Shown here piece after piece: positions 24,528-33,420 of a stretch of DNA of 64,000 nt. Below the pieces are notes generated by a model. That model was not told where the DNA came from and made no database searches. It saw only the letters and a program-made list of their open reading frames with translations. Each line of letters begins with the position of its first letter. Position 1 is the stretch's first letter. Source of the stretch: Streptacidiphilus jiangxiensis (GTDB lineage: Bacteria > Actinomycetota > Actinomycetes > Streptomycetales > Streptomycetaceae). The position numbers were made by a program, and so were the translations under genes. Location of the stretch: positions 62,001 through 126,000 of the forward strand of contig NZ_FOAZ01000020.1 of the NCBI RefSeq assembly GCF_900109465.1, given 5' to 3'.

Positions 24528-26336
24528 GTGAACCATGCCGCGATCTGCCTCGTCGTGCTCGGCGTGGTGGTCGTCCTCTTCGTGTGGAACCGGCTGCCGG
24601 TGGAGCTGGTGGCGCTGGGCTCCGCCCTGGCGCTGCTGGCCACCGGCGTCCTGACGACCGATCAGGTCTTCGCCGGGTTCGGGGACCCGGTGGTGGCCTT
24701 CGTCGCCGCCCTGTTCGTGGTCAGCACCGCGCTCCAGGCGACCGGGGTCACCGCGTGGGCGGGCCGCGCCCTCGCCTCCGTCGTGGGCGCCGGGTCGCGG
24801 CGGCTGCTGGTCCTCACCATGGCGGCGGCCGGCCTGCTCACGGCGCTGATCACGGTGAACGGAGCGGTCGCGGCCCTGCTGCCGATGACGGTGCTGCTGG
24901 CCGTGCGGCTGCGGGTGCCGTCCTCCCGGCTGGCGATGCCGCTGGCGTTCGCCGCCCACGCCGGTTCCCTGCTGCTGCTCATCGGCTCGCCGATCAACGT
25001 GATCGTCTCCGAGGCGGCGAGCGAGTCCGGGGCGCGGCCGTTCGGCTTCTTCGAGTTCGCGCTCGTGGGCGTCCCGGTGCTGGCCGGCACGATGGCCATC
25101 GCCGTCCTGCTCGGGCCACGGCTCCTGCCCGAGCGGACACCCGACGCGATCCCCGCCGACCTGAGCCGCCACGCCCGCACCCTGATCGACCACTACGCGC
25201 TCGCTGAAGGATCGGCGGCCGTCCAGGTGACCAGCGCCTCCGACGGTGTCGGCGCCCCGCTCGACGCGCTCGCGGCACAGGCCCCGTCCGGCGTGCTGGT
25301 GGTCGGCGCCATGACCGCCGACGGTCACGACCCGCGCGGCGCCGCGCCGCTGGAGGCGGGCGACATCGTCGTGCTGCGCGGCGACGAGGACGACGTCGCC
25401 GCGTTCGGCCGGGCCCACGGCCTCGAACCACTGCCGCCGCCCCTGCACGAACATCTGGCGGACGTGCTGGTCAACCGGGACGCCGGGCTGGTCGAGCTGG
25501 TCGTCAGCCCCCGGTCGGCCCTGGTGGGCACGACCGCGTTTCCCGGGATGGCCAGCGCGAGCGGTGACCTCTCGGTGCTCGCGATCCACCGAGCGGGCGC
25601 CGAGGTCGGCCCGCGGCCCACGACCTTGGCCGCAGGGGACGGTCTGCTCATCCGGGGCCGCTGGGACGAGCTCGACCAGGCCGCGCGCGGGCGGACGTTC
25701 CTGGTCGTCGACCGGCCGCAGGCCGTCCGTAGCCAGACCGCGCCCCTTGGGCGGCCCGCGCTGGCGGCCCTCGCGGTTCTCGCGGGCATGGTCGTCCTTC
25801 TCGGCACGGGAGCCGCGGCCCCGGCCGTCGCCGCCACCTTGGCCGCCCTGCTGCTGGTGGCCGCGCGGACCGTCACCGTCCCGCAGGCCTACGCAGGCAT
25901 CTCGTGGACCACCTTGGTGATCGTCGGCGGGATGTTCCCGCTCTCCGTCGCGATGAAGGAGTCCGGGGCCGCCGACATGATCGCCGACCTCGTCGTCTCG
26001 GCCGCGTCCGGCAACGGACGGCTGCTGCTGCTCGCCGTCTTCGTCCTGACCGCCGTGCTCGGGCAGTTCATCAGCAACATGGCCACCGCGCTGATCGTCA
26101 CCCCGGTCGCCGTCAGCGCCGCCCAGGACGCGGGCGTCTCCGTGCTCCCGGTCCTGATGTGCGTGGCCGTCCCGGCTGCTGCGGCGCTGCTCACCCCCGT
26201 CGCCACGGCAGCCAACATGATGGTCATGAGCCCGGGTGGGTACCGCTTCGGCGACTACTGGAAGTTCGGCCTGCCGATCCTGGGCTGGTACCTGGTGGTC
26301 GCGATGGGCGTCGTGCCGCTGGCCTGGCCCCTGTGA
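24528..26336 (+). CDS. SLC13/ArsB-type (citrate/sulfate-like) permease with internal TrkA-C domains
   Basis: The 602-residue protein starts at GTG 24528 (GGAGG about 11 bp upstream). Two membrane halves, each with a hairpin motif (LLLIGSPINVIVSEAAS; then VATAANMMVMSPGGYRFGDY), flank a soluble middle. About residues 215-385 of that middle carry two RCK_C/TrkA-C-like domains (PLEAGDIVVLRGDEDDVAAF and AGDGLLIRGRWDEL). This layout is typical of the SLC13/DASS-like permeases that move dicarboxylates, sulfate or related anions. It follows the AbgT gene closely and precedes glutaminase, so a glutamate-related or organic anion substrate is plausible but unproven. Confidence 0.88.
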   Translation: MNHAAICLVVLGVVVVLFVWNRLPVELVALGSALALLATGVLTTDQVFAGFGDPVVAFVAALFVVSTALQATGVTAWAGRALASVVGAGSRRLLVLTMAAAGLLTALITVNGAVAALLPMTVLLAVRLRVPSSRLAMPLAFAAHAGSLLLLIGSPINVIVSEAASESGARPFGFFEFALVGVPVLAGTMAIAVLLGPRLLPERTPDAIPADLSRHARTLIDHYALAEGSAAVQVTSASDGVGAPLDALAAQAPSGVLVVGAMTADGHDPRGAAPLEAGDIVVLRGDEDDVAAFGRAHGLEPLPPPLHEHLADVLVNRDAGLVELVVSPRSALVGTTAFPGMASASGDLSVLAIHRAGAEVGPRPTTLAAGDGLLIRGRWDELDQAARGRTFLVVDRPQAVRSQTAPLGRPALAALAVLAGMVVLLGTGAAAPAVAATLAALLLVAARTVTVPQAYAGISWTTLVIVGGMFPLSVAMKESGAADMIADLVVSAASGNGRLLLLAVFVLTAVLGQFISNMATALIVTPVAVSAAQDAGVSVLPVLMCVAVPAAAALLTPVATAANMMVMSPGGYRFGDYWKFGLPILGWYLVVAMGVVPLAWPL

Positions 26337-26397
26337 GCGCGTGCGGCGCCCTGAGCCCCGCGTTGCGGGCCGTCCCGGCCCGGCCAAGCATGGGGGC

Positions 26398-27657
26398 ATG
26401 ACGAGCGGGGCCACCGGAGCCGTGCCGGACGTGATCAGTGAGGCGCTGGCGGACCTCCGCGACCGCCTGGCAGCCGACCAGGCAGGGGAGGTCGCGCGCT
26501 ACATCCCACCCCTGGCGCTGGCGGACCCCGCGGCCTTCGGTCTCGCCCTGGTCAGTCGCGAAGGACACTGCTACCGCGCTGGTGAGTCCGACGTCCGCTT
26601 CACGATCCAGTCCGTCTCGAAGCCGTTCGTCTTTGCCCTGGCCCTGACCGACCTCGGTCTGGAGGAGACGACCCGCTGGGTGGGCGCGGAGCCGAGCGGC
26701 GAGGCCTTCAACGCCATCAGCCTGGAACCGGGCACCGGTCGTCCGGCCAATCCGATGATCAATGCGGGTGCGATCGCCACCACCGGCCTGATCCGGGCGG
26801 CGGACAACGAGGAGCGCTTCGACCGCATCCTGGACGTCCTCGGCCGCTTCGCCGGCCGTTCCCTCGACGTCGACGAGACGGTCCACCGGGCCGAGGCGGC
26901 CACCGGTGACCGCAACCGCGCCCTGGCCCACCTGCTGCGCGCCTCGGGGCGGTTGCGGCTGGATCCGGCCGAGGCGGCCGACGTCTACTTCCGCCAGTGC
27001 TCCGTGCTGGTGGACACCGTCGACCTGGCGGTCATGGCCGCGACCCTGGCCGACGGCGGGCGCAACCCGGTCACCGGCGAGCAGGTGGTCCCGGAACCCG
27101 TTGCCGTCCAGGTGCTCTCGGTCATGGCGACCTGCGGGATGTACGACGCGTCGGGCGACTGGATGCTGCGTGTGGGCCTGCCCGCCAAGAGCGGGGTGTC
27201 GGGCGGGCTGCTCGCGGTCAGCCCCGGGCGGTTCGGCGTCGCGTGCTACAGCCCGCCGCTGGACGCGGTGGGCAGCCCCGTGCGCGCGGTGGCCGCCCTG
27301 CGTGAGCTGTCGGCGCGATTCGGCCTCCATCTGCTGCACAATCCCGCTCCGAGCGCGCCTCCGGTCACCGTGGTTCGGCGAGATCCTCGAACGGGTGGTC
27401 CTGTCGTGACGGCGCAGGGGTCCCTGGACTTCACCGCCGCCGAACGGCTGGTCCACACCCTGTGGCACTGCCTGCCGGCCGGAGGTGCGGAGCCGATCGT
27501 GCTCGACCTGGAACGGGTCTCCACGGTCGACGGCGCGGCCGTGGCCGTGGTGTCCGCGACCCTGGAACGGATCGAGGCCGCGGGGCGTCCGATCCGTCTG
27601 GTCGGCCGCGCCGGCCGAGCCTTCGGGCGACGGGACTCGGAATCGAAGTGGTCGTAG
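26398..27657 (+). CDS. glsA: Glutaminase A with C-terminal STAS-like domain
   Basis: The 419-residue protein probably starts at ATG 26398; the site before it, GGGGG, is weak. Residues 1-310 are a serine-dependent glutaminase with the beta-lactamase-like fold: the nucleophile motif SVSKPF at about 71-76, NAISLEPGTGRPANPMINAG, and VMATCGMYDASGDW. It hydrolyses glutamine to glutamate and ammonia in the cytosol. From about residue 334 a STAS-like domain follows (VLDLERVSTVDGAAVAVV, RPIRLVGRAGRAF), a fusion I know from other actinobacterial glutaminases. Its place after two transporters and a peptidase suggests a glutamate/ammonia supply or acid-tolerance role. Confidence 0.93.
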   Translation: MTSGATGAVPDVISEALADLRDRLAADQAGEVARYIPPLALADPAAFGLALVSREGHCYRAGESDVRFTIQSVSKPFVFALALTDLGLEETTRWVGAEPSGEAFNAISLEPGTGRPANPMINAGAIATTGLIRAADNEERFDRILDVLGRFAGRSLDVDETVHRAEAATGDRNRALAHLLRASGRLRLDPAEAADVYFRQCSVLVDTVDLAVMAATLADGGRNPVTGEQVVPEPVAVQVLSVMATCGMYDASGDWMLRVGLPAKSGVSGGLLAVSPGRFGVACYSPPLDAVGSPVRAVAALRELSARFGLHLLHNPAPSAPPVTVVRRDPRTGGPVVTAQGSLDFTAAERLVHTLWHCLPAGGAEPIVLDLERVSTVDGAAVAVVSATLERIEAAGRPIRLVGRAGRAFGRRDSESKWS

Positions 27658-28283: not shown

Positions 28284-28514
28284 GCACTCATCGCCCGCGC
28301 AGTGTCGCCTTCGTCCCATGCCGGCGCGGTCGGCCCGGCTTCGGGCGGAAAAAGGGTTCGCTGCCCGGGCCGTCCAGCCCGTGCGGGCGAGGACCGATCG
28401 ACGTCCTCGCCGCGGGGATCGGTGACAACAGGGCGGCGCGCACGTGCCGCAATGCGGTGCGCCGGATCGTGGCTGGGGGATCATGGTGGTCATGGATGAG
28501 CGTGAGGCCGTCGG

Positions 28515-30659
28515 GTGCTCCGCGACGCACCGCCCGCGACGCAGCCGGTCCTCTCGCGGAAGGGCGAGCCAGGTGATCGGGTGGGACCGGTGAACCGGGC
28601 ACAGGAGCCGGCCGAGGGGCTGACCCTGGAGGCCTTGTTCAGTCAGTCGCCGCAGGGGCTGCACATCTTCGATGCCGGACTGCGGCTGGTGCGGATCAAT
28701 CCGGCGACGGCGGCCATGCGGGGGCGTGACGCCCGAGAACTGGTCGGTCTCCCTCTGCGGGAGGTCTTCGCGCTGGAGGATCCCGATTCGGTGGAGGCTC
28801 TGGCGCGTTCGGTGCTCGAGGACGGGCGGCCCGTACTGGAACGGCGTGTGAGGGCGTTCCTCGACCCGCCCACGGCGGCGGTGCGCACGTATTCGGTGTC
28901 GCTGTTCCGGCTGCGGTCCCCGGCGGGGGCGGTCCTCGGGCTGGCAGCGACCGTAGTGGACGTGACGGAACTGGTGGTCGCCGAGGCGGGCTCACAGGCC
29001 CTGGACGCGGTACGCGCACGGGTCGGTGTTTCACTGGACGCGGTCGAGATCTGCCGTGAACTGGCCGAGGTCCTGACAGGCGGGATGGCCGACGCGGTGG
29101 TCGTGGAGATCGTCGACGCGCTGATGACCGGCGACGACCCTCCACTGCTCCCGCTACCGCCGTTCGTGGCCTTGCACGGCGCGGCCGTGCAACGTCGCGG
29201 CGCCGACACCGGAAGCGGGCCGTTCGGGTCCTCGCACCCGCCGGACGCGACATCGCCCGTCGGCCTCGCGCTGGCGCAGGGCAGGCCGGTCACGGTCACC
29301 CTGGCGGGCGAACCGGCCTGGCTGCACGCCAGTGCGGACCACGCCGCCGCGGTGCGCGGGGAAGTGCCGGCGACCGTGCTGGTGGTGCCGTTCCTGCTGC
29401 GGGGCACGCTGCTCGGCCTGGCGAGCCTTTACCGGTTCGAGGGGTCGCCGTCCTTCACCCAGGAGGACACCGTGCTGGCCGCGACGGTGGCCGACTACGT
29501 GGCGCTGTGCCTGGACAACTCACGCCGCTACACCCGCGAGCACGCGGTCGCCGCCACGGTGCAGCGCAGGTTCCTGCCCCAGGCACCGCAGGCCGCCGTC
29601 GGTCTGGAGACCGCGCAGGGCCACCTGGCGACACCTTCGGCCAGCGGCGGCTGGTACGACGTCATCCCACTGTCCAGCGCCCGTACCGCGCTCGTCATCG
29701 GCGAGGTCGACGGCTCCGGGATCCACACGTCCGCCACCATGGGCCAGCTGCGCACCGCGCTGCGCTGCCTGGCCTCGCTCGACCTGCAACCGGACGAGCT
29801 GCTGGCCCGCCTGGACGAGACCACCCGGCAACTGGCAGCGGAACGTCGCGCGCTTCCCGCCGCCGACCCGCTGCGGGAGCAGGCGCTGACGGCGAACTGC
29901 CTCTACGCGGTGTACGACCCGGTCTCCGGGACCCTCACCGCGGCCCGCGCCGGCCACCCAGGCCTGGTCCTGGTCTCCCGGGACGGAACCCTCGCCGAGG
30001 TCGACCTCCCGGACGGGCCGACCCTCGGGACCTCCGAGACCGCTCCCTTCGCCGCGACCAGGATGCCCGTCCCCGACGGCACCGTGCTGGCACTCACCAC
30101 ACCGGCACTCTTCGCCTCCCTCGGCCCGCAGGCCCTGCACGCCCACCTCGTCGCCGCCGGCGGCCGCCCCCTGCGCGAGCAGTGCGACCAGACCCTGCAC
30201 GCCTCGGCCGACGCCCGGCACGCAGGGGCGGTGATGCTGCTCCTCGGCCGGGCCATCGGACTGGATCTCGACGCCTCCGCGGACTGGAACCTGGAGCCCG
30301 ACGAGCGAGCCCCTGCGCAGGCGCGGTCGCTGGTGCGGACGCAGCTGGGACGCTGGGGACTGTCGGAGGAGGCTGTGTACGCGACCGAGCTCGTGGTGAG
30401 CGAGCTGGTGACCAACGTCGTCCGCTACGGCGAACCGCCGTGCCGTCTGCGCCTGATCCACGCCGACCGTCTGAGCGTCGAGGTCAGCGACGGCGAGGCC
30501 TCCAGCCCTCATCTGCGCCACGCCCGAACCACCGACGAGGGCGGCCGCGGGCTCTACATCGTGTCGCAACTCGCGGACCGGTGGGGCGTCCGGTTCGCCG
30601 CCCAGGGAAAGACGGTCTGGGTCGAACAACACGTCGCCGTCGGCACCGATCCGCCCTGA
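28515..30659 (+). CDS. PAS-GAF-SpoIIE-like-HATPase signalling protein with degenerate phosphatase motifs
   Basis: The product is 714 residues from GTG 28515 (GAGG upstream); GTG 28581 is an alternative. Domains in order: PAS (about 38-150; QSPQGLHIFDAGLRLVRINP), GAF-like (about 170-340), SpoIIE/PP2C-like (about 350-570) and an anti-sigma-type HATPase_c (about 585-705; ELVVSELVTNVVRYGEPP, DEGGRGLYIVSQLADRWG). In SpoIIE phosphatases the metal-binding motifs are usually GGDWYD, GDVxGHG and a late Asp pair. Here they read SGGWYDV (~377), GEVDGSG (~395) and RHAGAVMLL (~567). Phosphatase activity is therefore doubtful while the kinase-like domain looks intact. Such proteins tune sigma factors through anti-anti-sigma switches; no partner is adjacent. 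Confidence 0.88.
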   Translation: MLRDAPPATQPVLSRKGEPGDRVGPVNRAQEPAEGLTLEALFSQSPQGLHIFDAGLRLVRINPATAAMRGRDARELVGLPLREVFALEDPDSVEALARSVLEDGRPVLERRVRAFLDPPTAAVRTYSVSLFRLRSPAGAVLGLAATVVDVTELVVAEAGSQALDAVRARVGVSLDAVEICRELAEVLTGGMADAVVVEIVDALMTGDDPPLLPLPPFVALHGAAVQRRGADTGSGPFGSSHPPDATSPVGLALAQGRPVTVTLAGEPAWLHASADHAAAVRGEVPATVLVVPFLLRGTLLGLASLYRFEGSPSFTQEDTVLAATVADYVALCLDNSRRYTREHAVAATVQRRFLPQAPQAAVGLETAQGHLATPSASGGWYDVIPLSSARTALVIGEVDGSGIHTSATMGQLRTALRCLASLDLQPDELLARLDETTRQLAAERRALPAADPLREQALTANCLYAVYDPVSGTLTAARAGHPGLVLVSRDGTLAEVDLPDGPTLGTSETAPFAATRMPVPDGTVLALTTPALFASLGPQALHAHLVAAGGRPLREQCDQTLHASADARHAGAVMLLLGRAIGLDLDASADWNLEPDERAPAQARSLVRTQLGRWGLSEEAVYATELVVSELVTNVVRYGEPPCRLRLIHADRLSVEVSDGEASSPHLRHARTTDEGGRGLYIVSQLADRWGVRFAAQGKTVWVEQHVAVGTDPP

Positions 30660-32596: not shown

Positions 32597-33337
32597 TCAG
32601 ATGGCGGCGCGACCGCCGTCGACGGGTAGCACGACGCCCTGGACGAAGGCCGCCTGGTTGCCGACGAGGTAGGCGATGGCCTCGGCGATCTCGCTCGGGT
32701 CGGCGACGCGTCCCGCAGGGGCCTGGGAGGCGATCTGGTCCAGGGCTTCGCCCATGGGCGCGGTGCCCTCGGTGCGGACGGGGCCCGGGGAGACGGCGTT
32801 GACGCGCACGCCGTGCGGGCCGAACTCCGCGGCCCAGGCCTTGGTGAGCAGGGACACGGCGGCCTTGCTGGAGCCGTACAGGGCCATGCCGGGCCGGCCG
32901 AAGCCGGCCACCATGGTCGTCAGGCTCACGATGGCGCCCTCGCCGCGTTCGGCCATGGCCGGGGCCAGGGCGGCGACCAGGAAGAACGGAGCCTTGACGT
33001 TGACGGCGTAGGTGGCGTCGAAGTCCTGCTCGGTGACGGCGTCGGTGGGCCCGAAGGCGCCGATGCCGGCGTTGTTGACCAGGATGTCGATCCGGCCGGC
33101 TGTTTCGACGGCGCGGCGGGCCAGGTCGCGTGCCGATTCGGCGTCACGCAGGTCGGCGGGCAGGAAGTCCGCCTGGCCGCCGTCGGCGAGGATGGCGGCC
33201 ACCGTCTTCGCGCCGCGCTCCGCGTCGCGGCCCGAGACCAGGATGTGGGCGCCGCGGGCCGCGAGGGCCCGGGCGGTGGCGCGGCCGATGCCGCTGGTCG
33301 ATCCGGTCACCAGGGCGATCTTGCCGGTGAGTTCCAT
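32597..33337 (-). CDS. Short-chain dehydrogenase/reductase (SDR)
   Basis: The 246-residue classical SDR starts at ATG 33337. The NAD(P)-binding motif TGSTSGIGRATARALAARG is at the N-terminus, NNAGIGAFGPTD in the middle, and the catalytic pattern is SLTT...YGSSK (Tyr-x-x-x-Lys) followed by the SPGPVRTEGT loop. An Arg after the first Gly-rich motif region (VSGRDAERG) suggests NADPH preference. It diverges from a TetR regulator with a perfect palindrome between them, so the regulator very probably controls it. The substrate is unknown. Confidence 0.93.
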   Translation of the reverse strand: MELTGKIALVTGSTSGIGRATARALAARGAHILVSGRDAERGAKTVAAILADGGQADFLPADLRDAESARDLARRAVETAGRIDILVNNAGIGAFGPTDAVTEQDFDATYAVNVKAPFFLVAALAPAMAERGEGAIVSLTTMVAGFGRPGMALYGSSKAAVSLLTKAWAAEFGPHGVRVNAVSPGPVRTEGTAPMGEALDQIASQAPAGRVADPSEIAEAIAYLVGNQAAFVQGVVLPVDGGRAAI

Positions 33338-33420
33338 GGCAACCCTCCACTGGACGTGCGTCCCCGGGGTTCTGCTGAGCCCCGGAGTGGCTTGCCCGAT
33401 CCACTATTCGCCCATAAAAA

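Follow-up and report, generated by a model that had tools for sequence, protein, structure and literature searches.

What role is left to a SpoIIE-type protein in which none of the four metal-binding aspartates remains? The question is raised by a signalling protein of soil bacteria related to Streptomyces, encoded by one gene in the window, by which we mean the whole stretch of 64,000 nucleotides analysed here, lying on contig C51 of a 9.5 Mb genome with a completeness of 99.99%. SpoIIE phosphatases number in the dozens in streptomycetes (45 proteins in the genome of the window), and few have been studied. Zhang and Shi are said to have described Streptomyces PPM phosphatases in 2004, and OsaC of S. 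coelicolor, which has a kinase domain, is a studied protein of the PAS-GAF-SpoIIE-HATPase sort. Its GAF and PAS domains are mentioned in an excerpt of PMC12143880. No report of a SpoIIE pseudophosphatase in Streptomyces was found in the open-access papers searched, and an earlier mention is possible.

The reading that we prefer, at a probability of roughly two in three, is that the protein would be a partner-switching regulator whose PPM domain is a pseudophosphatase, acting as a relay or docking module that gates the fused RsbW-type kinase. By its sequence it appears to be a pseudoenzyme form of the PAS-GAF-SpoIIE-HATPase regulators, and such proteins call for caution in annotation as phosphatases.

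Gene and domain architecture

The reading frame contains no internal stop codons, and its features are collected in Table 1. Residues are numbered from the GTG at 28515; upstream alignment indicates that the GTG at 28590 is probably the real start instead. The SpoIIE match proper (PF07228) spans residues 388-565 and lies above the curated cut-off, which places the domain in the superfamily by profile. The protein stops 11 residues past the HATPase match, and a C-terminal STAS (RsbV) domain is absent. It is also not a member of the RsbA anti-sigma family, as the NCBIfam model NF041045 scored 56.7 bits against a cut-off of 210 and aligned with the kinase domain alone.

Table 1. Coordinates of the gene and its predicted features in the window
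Feature	Position	Strand	Details and basis
Protein with PAS, GAF, pseudo-SpoIIE (putative) and HATPase domains	28515..30659	+	714 aa from GTG 28515; ORF list and translation, Pfam
PAS_4 sensor domain	28638..28973	+	residues 42-153; Pfam E 1.9e-17
GAF sensor domain	29049..29516	+	residues 179-334; Pfam GAF_2 E 1.4e-08, GAF E 2.5e-08
Long linker helix into phosphatase fold	29460..29573	+	residues 316-353; AlphaFold2 model
Degenerate SpoIIE/PPM domain	29628..30254	+	about residues 372-580; Pfam PF07228 100.1 bits, cut-off 25; PPM fold in model
Motif 1, SGGWYDV	29643..29663	+	residues 377-383; metal Asp replaced by Gly379 (29649); HMM alignment with intact paralogues
Motif 2, GEVDGSG	29700..29720	+	residues 396-402; metal Asp replaced by Glu397 (29703); HMM alignment with intact paralogues
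Switch helices alpha1 and alpha2	29721..29849	+	residues 403-420 and 426-445; AlphaFold2 model
Switch loop with clade-specific L447, P448, D451	29850..29888	+	clade conservation
Motif 8, TTPAL	30096..30110	+	metal Asp replaced by Pro530 (30102); TDG to TPA within 528-532; HMM alignment
Motif 11, GAVMLL	30225..30242	+	DD replaced by Gly571-Ala572; HMM alignment
HATPase_c_2 (RsbW-type GHKL kinase)	30303..30623	+	residues 597-703; PF13581 54 bits, cut-off 27.4

Loss of the metal-binding site

Intact PAS-GAF-SpoIIE-HATPase relatives from the Streptomycetaceae are about 36-42% identical to the window protein, can be aligned with it from sensor to kinase and have like kinase motifs, yet they hold four metal-site aspartates where the window protein has none. 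In a profile HMM alignment, their VGGDWFDV, GDVVGHG, YTDGL and DDVALL correspond to ASGGWYDV, GEVDGSG, TTPAL and GAVMLL. The four Asp ligands of the M1 and M2 metals in an active PPM phosphatase are thus replaced by G379, E397, P530 and G571, the change at 397 being conservative. An earlier note on this DNA had described three altered phosphatase motifs; the alignment bears it out at Gly379, Glu397 and Gly571 (the last within RHAGAV, residues 568-573, 30216-30233). The note had also proposed this comparison with intact SpoIIE relatives as a check, and the loss proves more complete than it said, because a fourth site that it did not list (TDG to TPA, Pro530) is altered as well.

The aspartate of motif 1 is a further metal ligand in SpoIIE-type phosphatases, and we take the SpoIIE ligands D628, D746 and D795 to match motifs 2, 8 and 11. 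An excerpt of PMC5468089 assigns metal coordination to these three residues and to the backbone of G629.

Four orthologues at 78-80% identity, from S. pinicola, S. anmyonensis, S. fuscans and Kitasatospora sp. A2-31, read G-E-P-G like the window protein. The pattern is not a matter of chance, since these orthologues share it and 39 of the 45 SpoIIE proteins of the same genome read D-D-D-D. An alignment or sequencing artefact, in favour of which we found nothing, is scarcely credible when four separately sequenced genomes agree with the window.

That genome has 46 SpoIIE places corresponding to 45 proteins, one of them split, and the 39 D-D-D-D readings imply many intact paralogues within the organism. 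One site was unreadable in three proteins (motif 11 in two, motif 1 in one), and three others are altered: the window protein, L104 (G-D-S-R) and L098 (D-S-D-D). Zero aspartates are found in the window protein only. L104 shares its PAS-GAF-SpoIIE-HATPase order, and Pfam finds the SpoIIE domain alone in L098.

Phylogenetic extent of the loss

The closest named relatives of the window protein belong to Streptacidiphilus and Kitasatospora; beyond the orthologues, the next matches listed from the 394 genomes of the family fall to about 39-49% identity. Matches with E of at most 1.1e-143 (480 bits) occur in 63 of these genomes, as counted by eye. We built a tree of 106 proteins, comprising the window protein, its relatives and ten paralogues from its own genome whose alignment reaches as far as the kinase. 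Its rows were picked by similarity to the window protein, with four second orthologue copies and the other own paralogues omitted, and for that reason the counts below are not a census.

The window protein lies in a clade of 68 rows (SH-aLRT 99) to which all tree-placed rows of the 63-genome group belong; the tree leaves out the best matches from two of those genomes, along with three second copies. None of the four aspartates is kept in 45 clade rows, one in 21 and two in two, with a gap counted as no Asp (two clade rows are gapped at motif 8). Among the 38 rows outside, four are kept in 25, three in six, two in three, one in three and none in one. The clade is retained with residues 353-593 removed (SH-aLRT 99, 106 rows); a mixture-model tree of 64 of the 106 rows, including 34 of the 68 clade rows, recovers it, also without residues 353-593 (UFBoot 100, SH-aLRT 96). 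As the clade survives removal of the SpoIIE region, the grouping is independent of the decayed motifs. The loss is shared by ancestry across a large clade, a point beyond the reach of the earlier note, and from these sequences the metal-binding active site seems to have been lost long ago.

The rows adjoining the clade read D-D-P-D (L138), D-D-D-D (L145), H-D-V-H (L147) and D-D-N-D (L140). If proteins with at most two aspartates are called degenerate (75 of 106 rows), the trees require at least five state changes, a count that does not distinguish gain from loss; repeated loss is the likelier reading. L104 (G000:C43:131500-135500) groups with L061 and L063 in a lineage apart from that of the window protein, and this separate lineage suggests that the phosphatase site may have been lost more than once.

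Single aspartates are retained in the clade at motif 8 (15 rows), motif 2 (seven) and motif 11 (three). Some clade members thus keep one Asp, and single-metal binding is therefore possible elsewhere in the clade. A further subclade of 11 rows (CGAA; L045 and L122, for example) has metal strands that are 96% identical, with Cys, Gly, Ala (Ser in one row) and Ala at the four sites, as if an empty pocket had acquired a new fixed role. Two genomes (at G111:C1:3296950-3317520 and G135:C64:32814-52593) each carry two high-scoring relatives in opposite orientation, about 16-17 kb apart.

Possible substitute ligands and residual activity

Acidic ligands supplied at shifted positions, named in the earlier note as grounds for abandoning the idea of a lost site, were sought as clade columns with at least 80% D or E, and the alignment offers no replacement set in the metal strands. 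D382, D423, E428 and D468 were rejected as substitutes, being about as acidic in intact rows; columns 451, 508 and 558 show acidic enrichment in the clade, yet lie outside the metal strands. An apparent Asp loss at column 508 was likewise set aside, since almost every intact row has an alignment gap there. The sequence strongly implies that PP2C activity has been lost, because no canonical metal Asp remains and no acidic column replaces one clade-wide in the metal strands.

We consider it distinctly unlikely that the PPM domain has a weak or unusual activity, resting on one metal or on ligands at shifted positions. Such activity could draw on E397, which is acidic, as is column 397 in 46% of clade rows, and on positions 451, 508 and 558, which are more often acidic in the clade than in intact rows. 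TAB1 and PHLPP2, animal pseudophosphatases, are inactive and still bind one metal, according to excerpts of PMC12002173. However, three of the four ligand sites carry Gly, Pro and Gly, and across the clade the frequency of D or E is 0.03 at column 379 and 0.09 at 571. Of the three enriched positions, moreover, 451 falls in the switch loop, 508 is mostly gap in intact rows and 558 sits in a helix of the model; none is in the metal strands.

TAB1 and PHLPP2 resemble the window protein in that evolution has preserved a degenerate metal site within a PPM fold (excerpts of PMC12002173). They differ in pathway and architecture; they bind one metal, to which three of the four ligand sites of the window protein are unsuited.

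Predicted fold and shifted constraint

The AlphaFold2 model of the window protein (mean pLDDT 85.9, pTM 0.73) predicts that the degenerate domain retains the PPM fold, aligned to about residue 580. Its PPM part matches the solved structures of SiaA (6k4e, Z 24.4), Pseudomonas aeruginosa RssB (3f79, 22.7), SpoIIE (5ucg, 22.3) and RsbX (3w40, 21.5). The nearest solved structure both by profile (3.1e-26) and by fold is Mycobacterium tuberculosis Rv1364c (PDB 3ke6), which is also the best chain over the PPM and kinase domains together. Like the window protein, Rv1364c joins a PAS sensor, a PPM domain and then an RsbW-type kinase in a single chain. Unlike it, Rv1364c aligns with GGDWFD and GDVVGHG at motifs 1 and 2, and therefore looks intact there. 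Rv1364c also has the C-terminal anti-anti-sigma domain that the window protein lacks, and excerpts of PMC12143880 do not mention a GAF domain for it.

Rates of substitution were compared over five regions in the five orthologues (the window set), with 95% intervals from a codon bootstrap. The dN/dS of the SpoIIE domain is 0.275 [0.207-0.359] and that of the kinase 0.243 [0.160-0.358]; intact paralogues of these species, taken as four sets, span 0.160-0.250 and 0.101-0.275, respectively. For the SpoIIE domain, the values in four further subclades of the dead clade are 0.204, 0.252, 0.350 and 0.360. The dead domain is under purifying selection, as is the kinase, and this upkeep is likewise something that the earlier note could not show.

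Within the domain, constraint is unevenly placed. The metal strands of the window set (32 codons) reach 0.355 [0.157-0.801], and the switch helices (residues 408-446, 39 codons) have the lowest value of the five regions, 0.023 [0-0.059]. In the intact sets, the metal strands stand at 0.034, 0, 0.249 and 0.072, the third not being clearly tighter (0.249 [0.046-0.840]), and the switch helices (39-52 columns) at 0.156, 0.092, 0.216 and 0.231. Amino acid identities run in the same direction against all four controls: 0.938-1.000 in the intact sets versus 0.806 in the window set for the metal strands, and 0.885-0.936 versus 0.979 (97.9%) for the switch helices. In the window subclade, the switch helices have clearly taken over the constraint that the metal strands lost. 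The HENR set of four rows repeats this shift (0.310 for metal strands versus 0.094 for switch helices); as a clade-wide rule we rejected it, the CGAA, A.D. and C/S sets (three of the four other subclades) being without it.

The same displacement can be followed column by column, with 30 rows reading DDDD or DDND as the intact reference. Among 72 SpoIIE columns that are 90% conserved in these rows, 379, 571 and 397 belong to the seven that the clade conserves least (0, 0.044 and 0.103), and the Asp of column 530 is present in 83% of intact rows and 0.22 of the clade. Conversely, A431, R432, A441, L447, P448 and D451, in helix alpha2 and the following loop, are near-fixed in the clade and variable in intact rows. 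L447, P448 and D451 reach 94-97% in the clade versus at most 33% in intact rows, a letter being present in 18-24 of the 30. The same is true of T391, Q411 and D558 in the SpoIIE domain, and of two kinase residues, G639 and I682. Inside close subclades the switch loop as a whole is not slow, with dN/dS of 0.269-0.627 in four sets and wide intervals. In SpoIIE, the alpha2-beta4 loop is a docking element for the STAS substrate, according to an excerpt of PMC11418112.

These data bear on plain decay, in which the domain would be a relic drifting after loss of function. Many different residues occupy the ligand columns across the clade, and dN/dS of the ligand strands is raised in the window subclade (0.355), as drift would produce. 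Decay is nevertheless very unlikely: whole-domain dN/dS stays at 0.20-0.36 in five subclades, the reading frame and a Pfam-recognisable domain persist throughout a diverse clade, and new residues have become fixed.

The kinase domain and the proposed role

The earlier note had stated that the kinase domain keeps ELVTN and GGRGL, and this holds. SELVTN occupies residues 629-634 and GGRGL residues 676-680; with D659 also present, the N box, G1 and G2 of an RsbW/SpoIIAB-type GHKL kinase are in place. Seven residues of the ATP site (E630, N634, D659, G677, R678, G679 and K699) are invariant across the clade. Mutation of the conserved N54 and D84 abolishes the function of SspH, a single-domain HATPase regulator of Streptomyces (excerpt of PMC9137472), and retention of N634/D659-type residues is meaningful for that reason, the SspH pair presumably corresponding to N634 and D659. 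From these motifs we infer that the window protein would be a working kinase.

The main rival to our reading is a pure docking scaffold, in which both catalytic halves would be inactive or unimportant and a STAS or sigma partner would be titrated, much as by the RssB adaptor. The fixed residues that the clade has gained in the docking-loop region would suit it, and Escherichia coli RssB is a known pseudophosphatase adaptor (excerpts of PMC12143880). A scaffold would have no obvious need, however, of a clade-invariant ATP site, and the dN/dS of the kinase domain lies inside the range of the four intact sets; we judge this rival improbable. The N-terminal receiver and truncated PPM domain of RssB-type adaptors are both absent from the window protein.

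The comparison with RssB is instructive in other respects. It too is a stress regulator whose PPM domain lacks phosphatase activity and keeps linker and switch helices in use; in RsbU and RssB signals are transmitted by these elements, and RssB has been proposed to retain regulatory features after its ancestor lost phosphatase function (all from excerpts of PMC12143880). RssB carries a receiver domain, and its PPM is truncated at the C-terminus, whereas the window protein has PAS and GAF domains, no receiver among its Pfam matches and a PPM of full length in the model. Unlike that of RssB, the window PPM has lost the metal site and precedes a kinase domain.

In the gated-kinase reading that we favour, the PAS and GAF domains would sense a signal, and the long linker helix would carry it into the dead PPM domain, to the switch helices. 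In relatives that are active, these helices hold a metal in position; here the helices and the next loop may serve as a dock for a STAS anti-anti-sigma protein, alter the state of the kinase, or both. The protein would work one way only, either as a kinase gated by the signal or as an anti-sigma factor, and removal of phosphate would fall to intact SpoIIE paralogues. We infer that the conserved helices form the relay and that the client is a STAS or sigma protein. The sensing kinase or scaffold put forward in the earlier note is, on this sequence evidence, a reasonable suggestion that is partly supported.

A wider form of this proposal can be offered only tentatively, as we think it may well fail. 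An old, large clade of the Streptomycetaceae would have abandoned the metal site and converted SpoIIE into an internal docking and relay module, with the helices most constrained in some lineages, a newly fixed loop binding one conserved STAS or sigma client, and, as the outcome, a one-way, signal-gated kinase set among dozens of paralogues that are intact. A clade whose phosphatase is dead but kept would mean that some SpoIIE-HATPase proteins cannot reset their own substrate. In such a clade, what the PPM switch helices do as a relay could be told apart from catalysis, a natural experiment on the proposal that such helices serve generally to transmit signals (excerpts of PMC5468089 and PMC12143880).

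Genomic surroundings

The gene is surrounded by genes for a CitMHS-type transporter, a glutaminase-STAS fusion, a CBS protein, a redoxin-like protein, a TetR regulator, a GMC oxidoreductase and a catalase-like protein. The glutaminase with its C-terminal STAS domain (26236-27654, +) lies two genes upstream, and it is unmatched in the 8-kb flanks of the orthologues (L031-L036). When thirteen stretches of the window between 19.6 and 37.4 kb, the gene included, were compared with these flanks, the gene alone was matched, and no gene order is common with the four orthologues. An all-against-all comparison gave one weak extra pair, between the ORF at about 32600-33403 (-) and L033 (32% over 149 aa). 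Among 77 of the 148 called neighbours (two genes to either side at 20 loci), no family in more than four members, and no STAS neighbour, was found in the 25 of 118 families listed. The window gene looks like an orphan; with no recurring neighbour, its client is not readable from context.

Immediately 5' of the gene is a small ORF on the same strand (28492-28593; ATG at 28492, 33 codons plus stop). No codon-position bias was seen in it across the five orthologues. It is open in all five (32-34 aa), with a common AVGC stretch and indels in multiples of three only, and its TGA overlaps an RTG (GTGA or ATGA) which in the window, at 28590, is in frame with the main gene.
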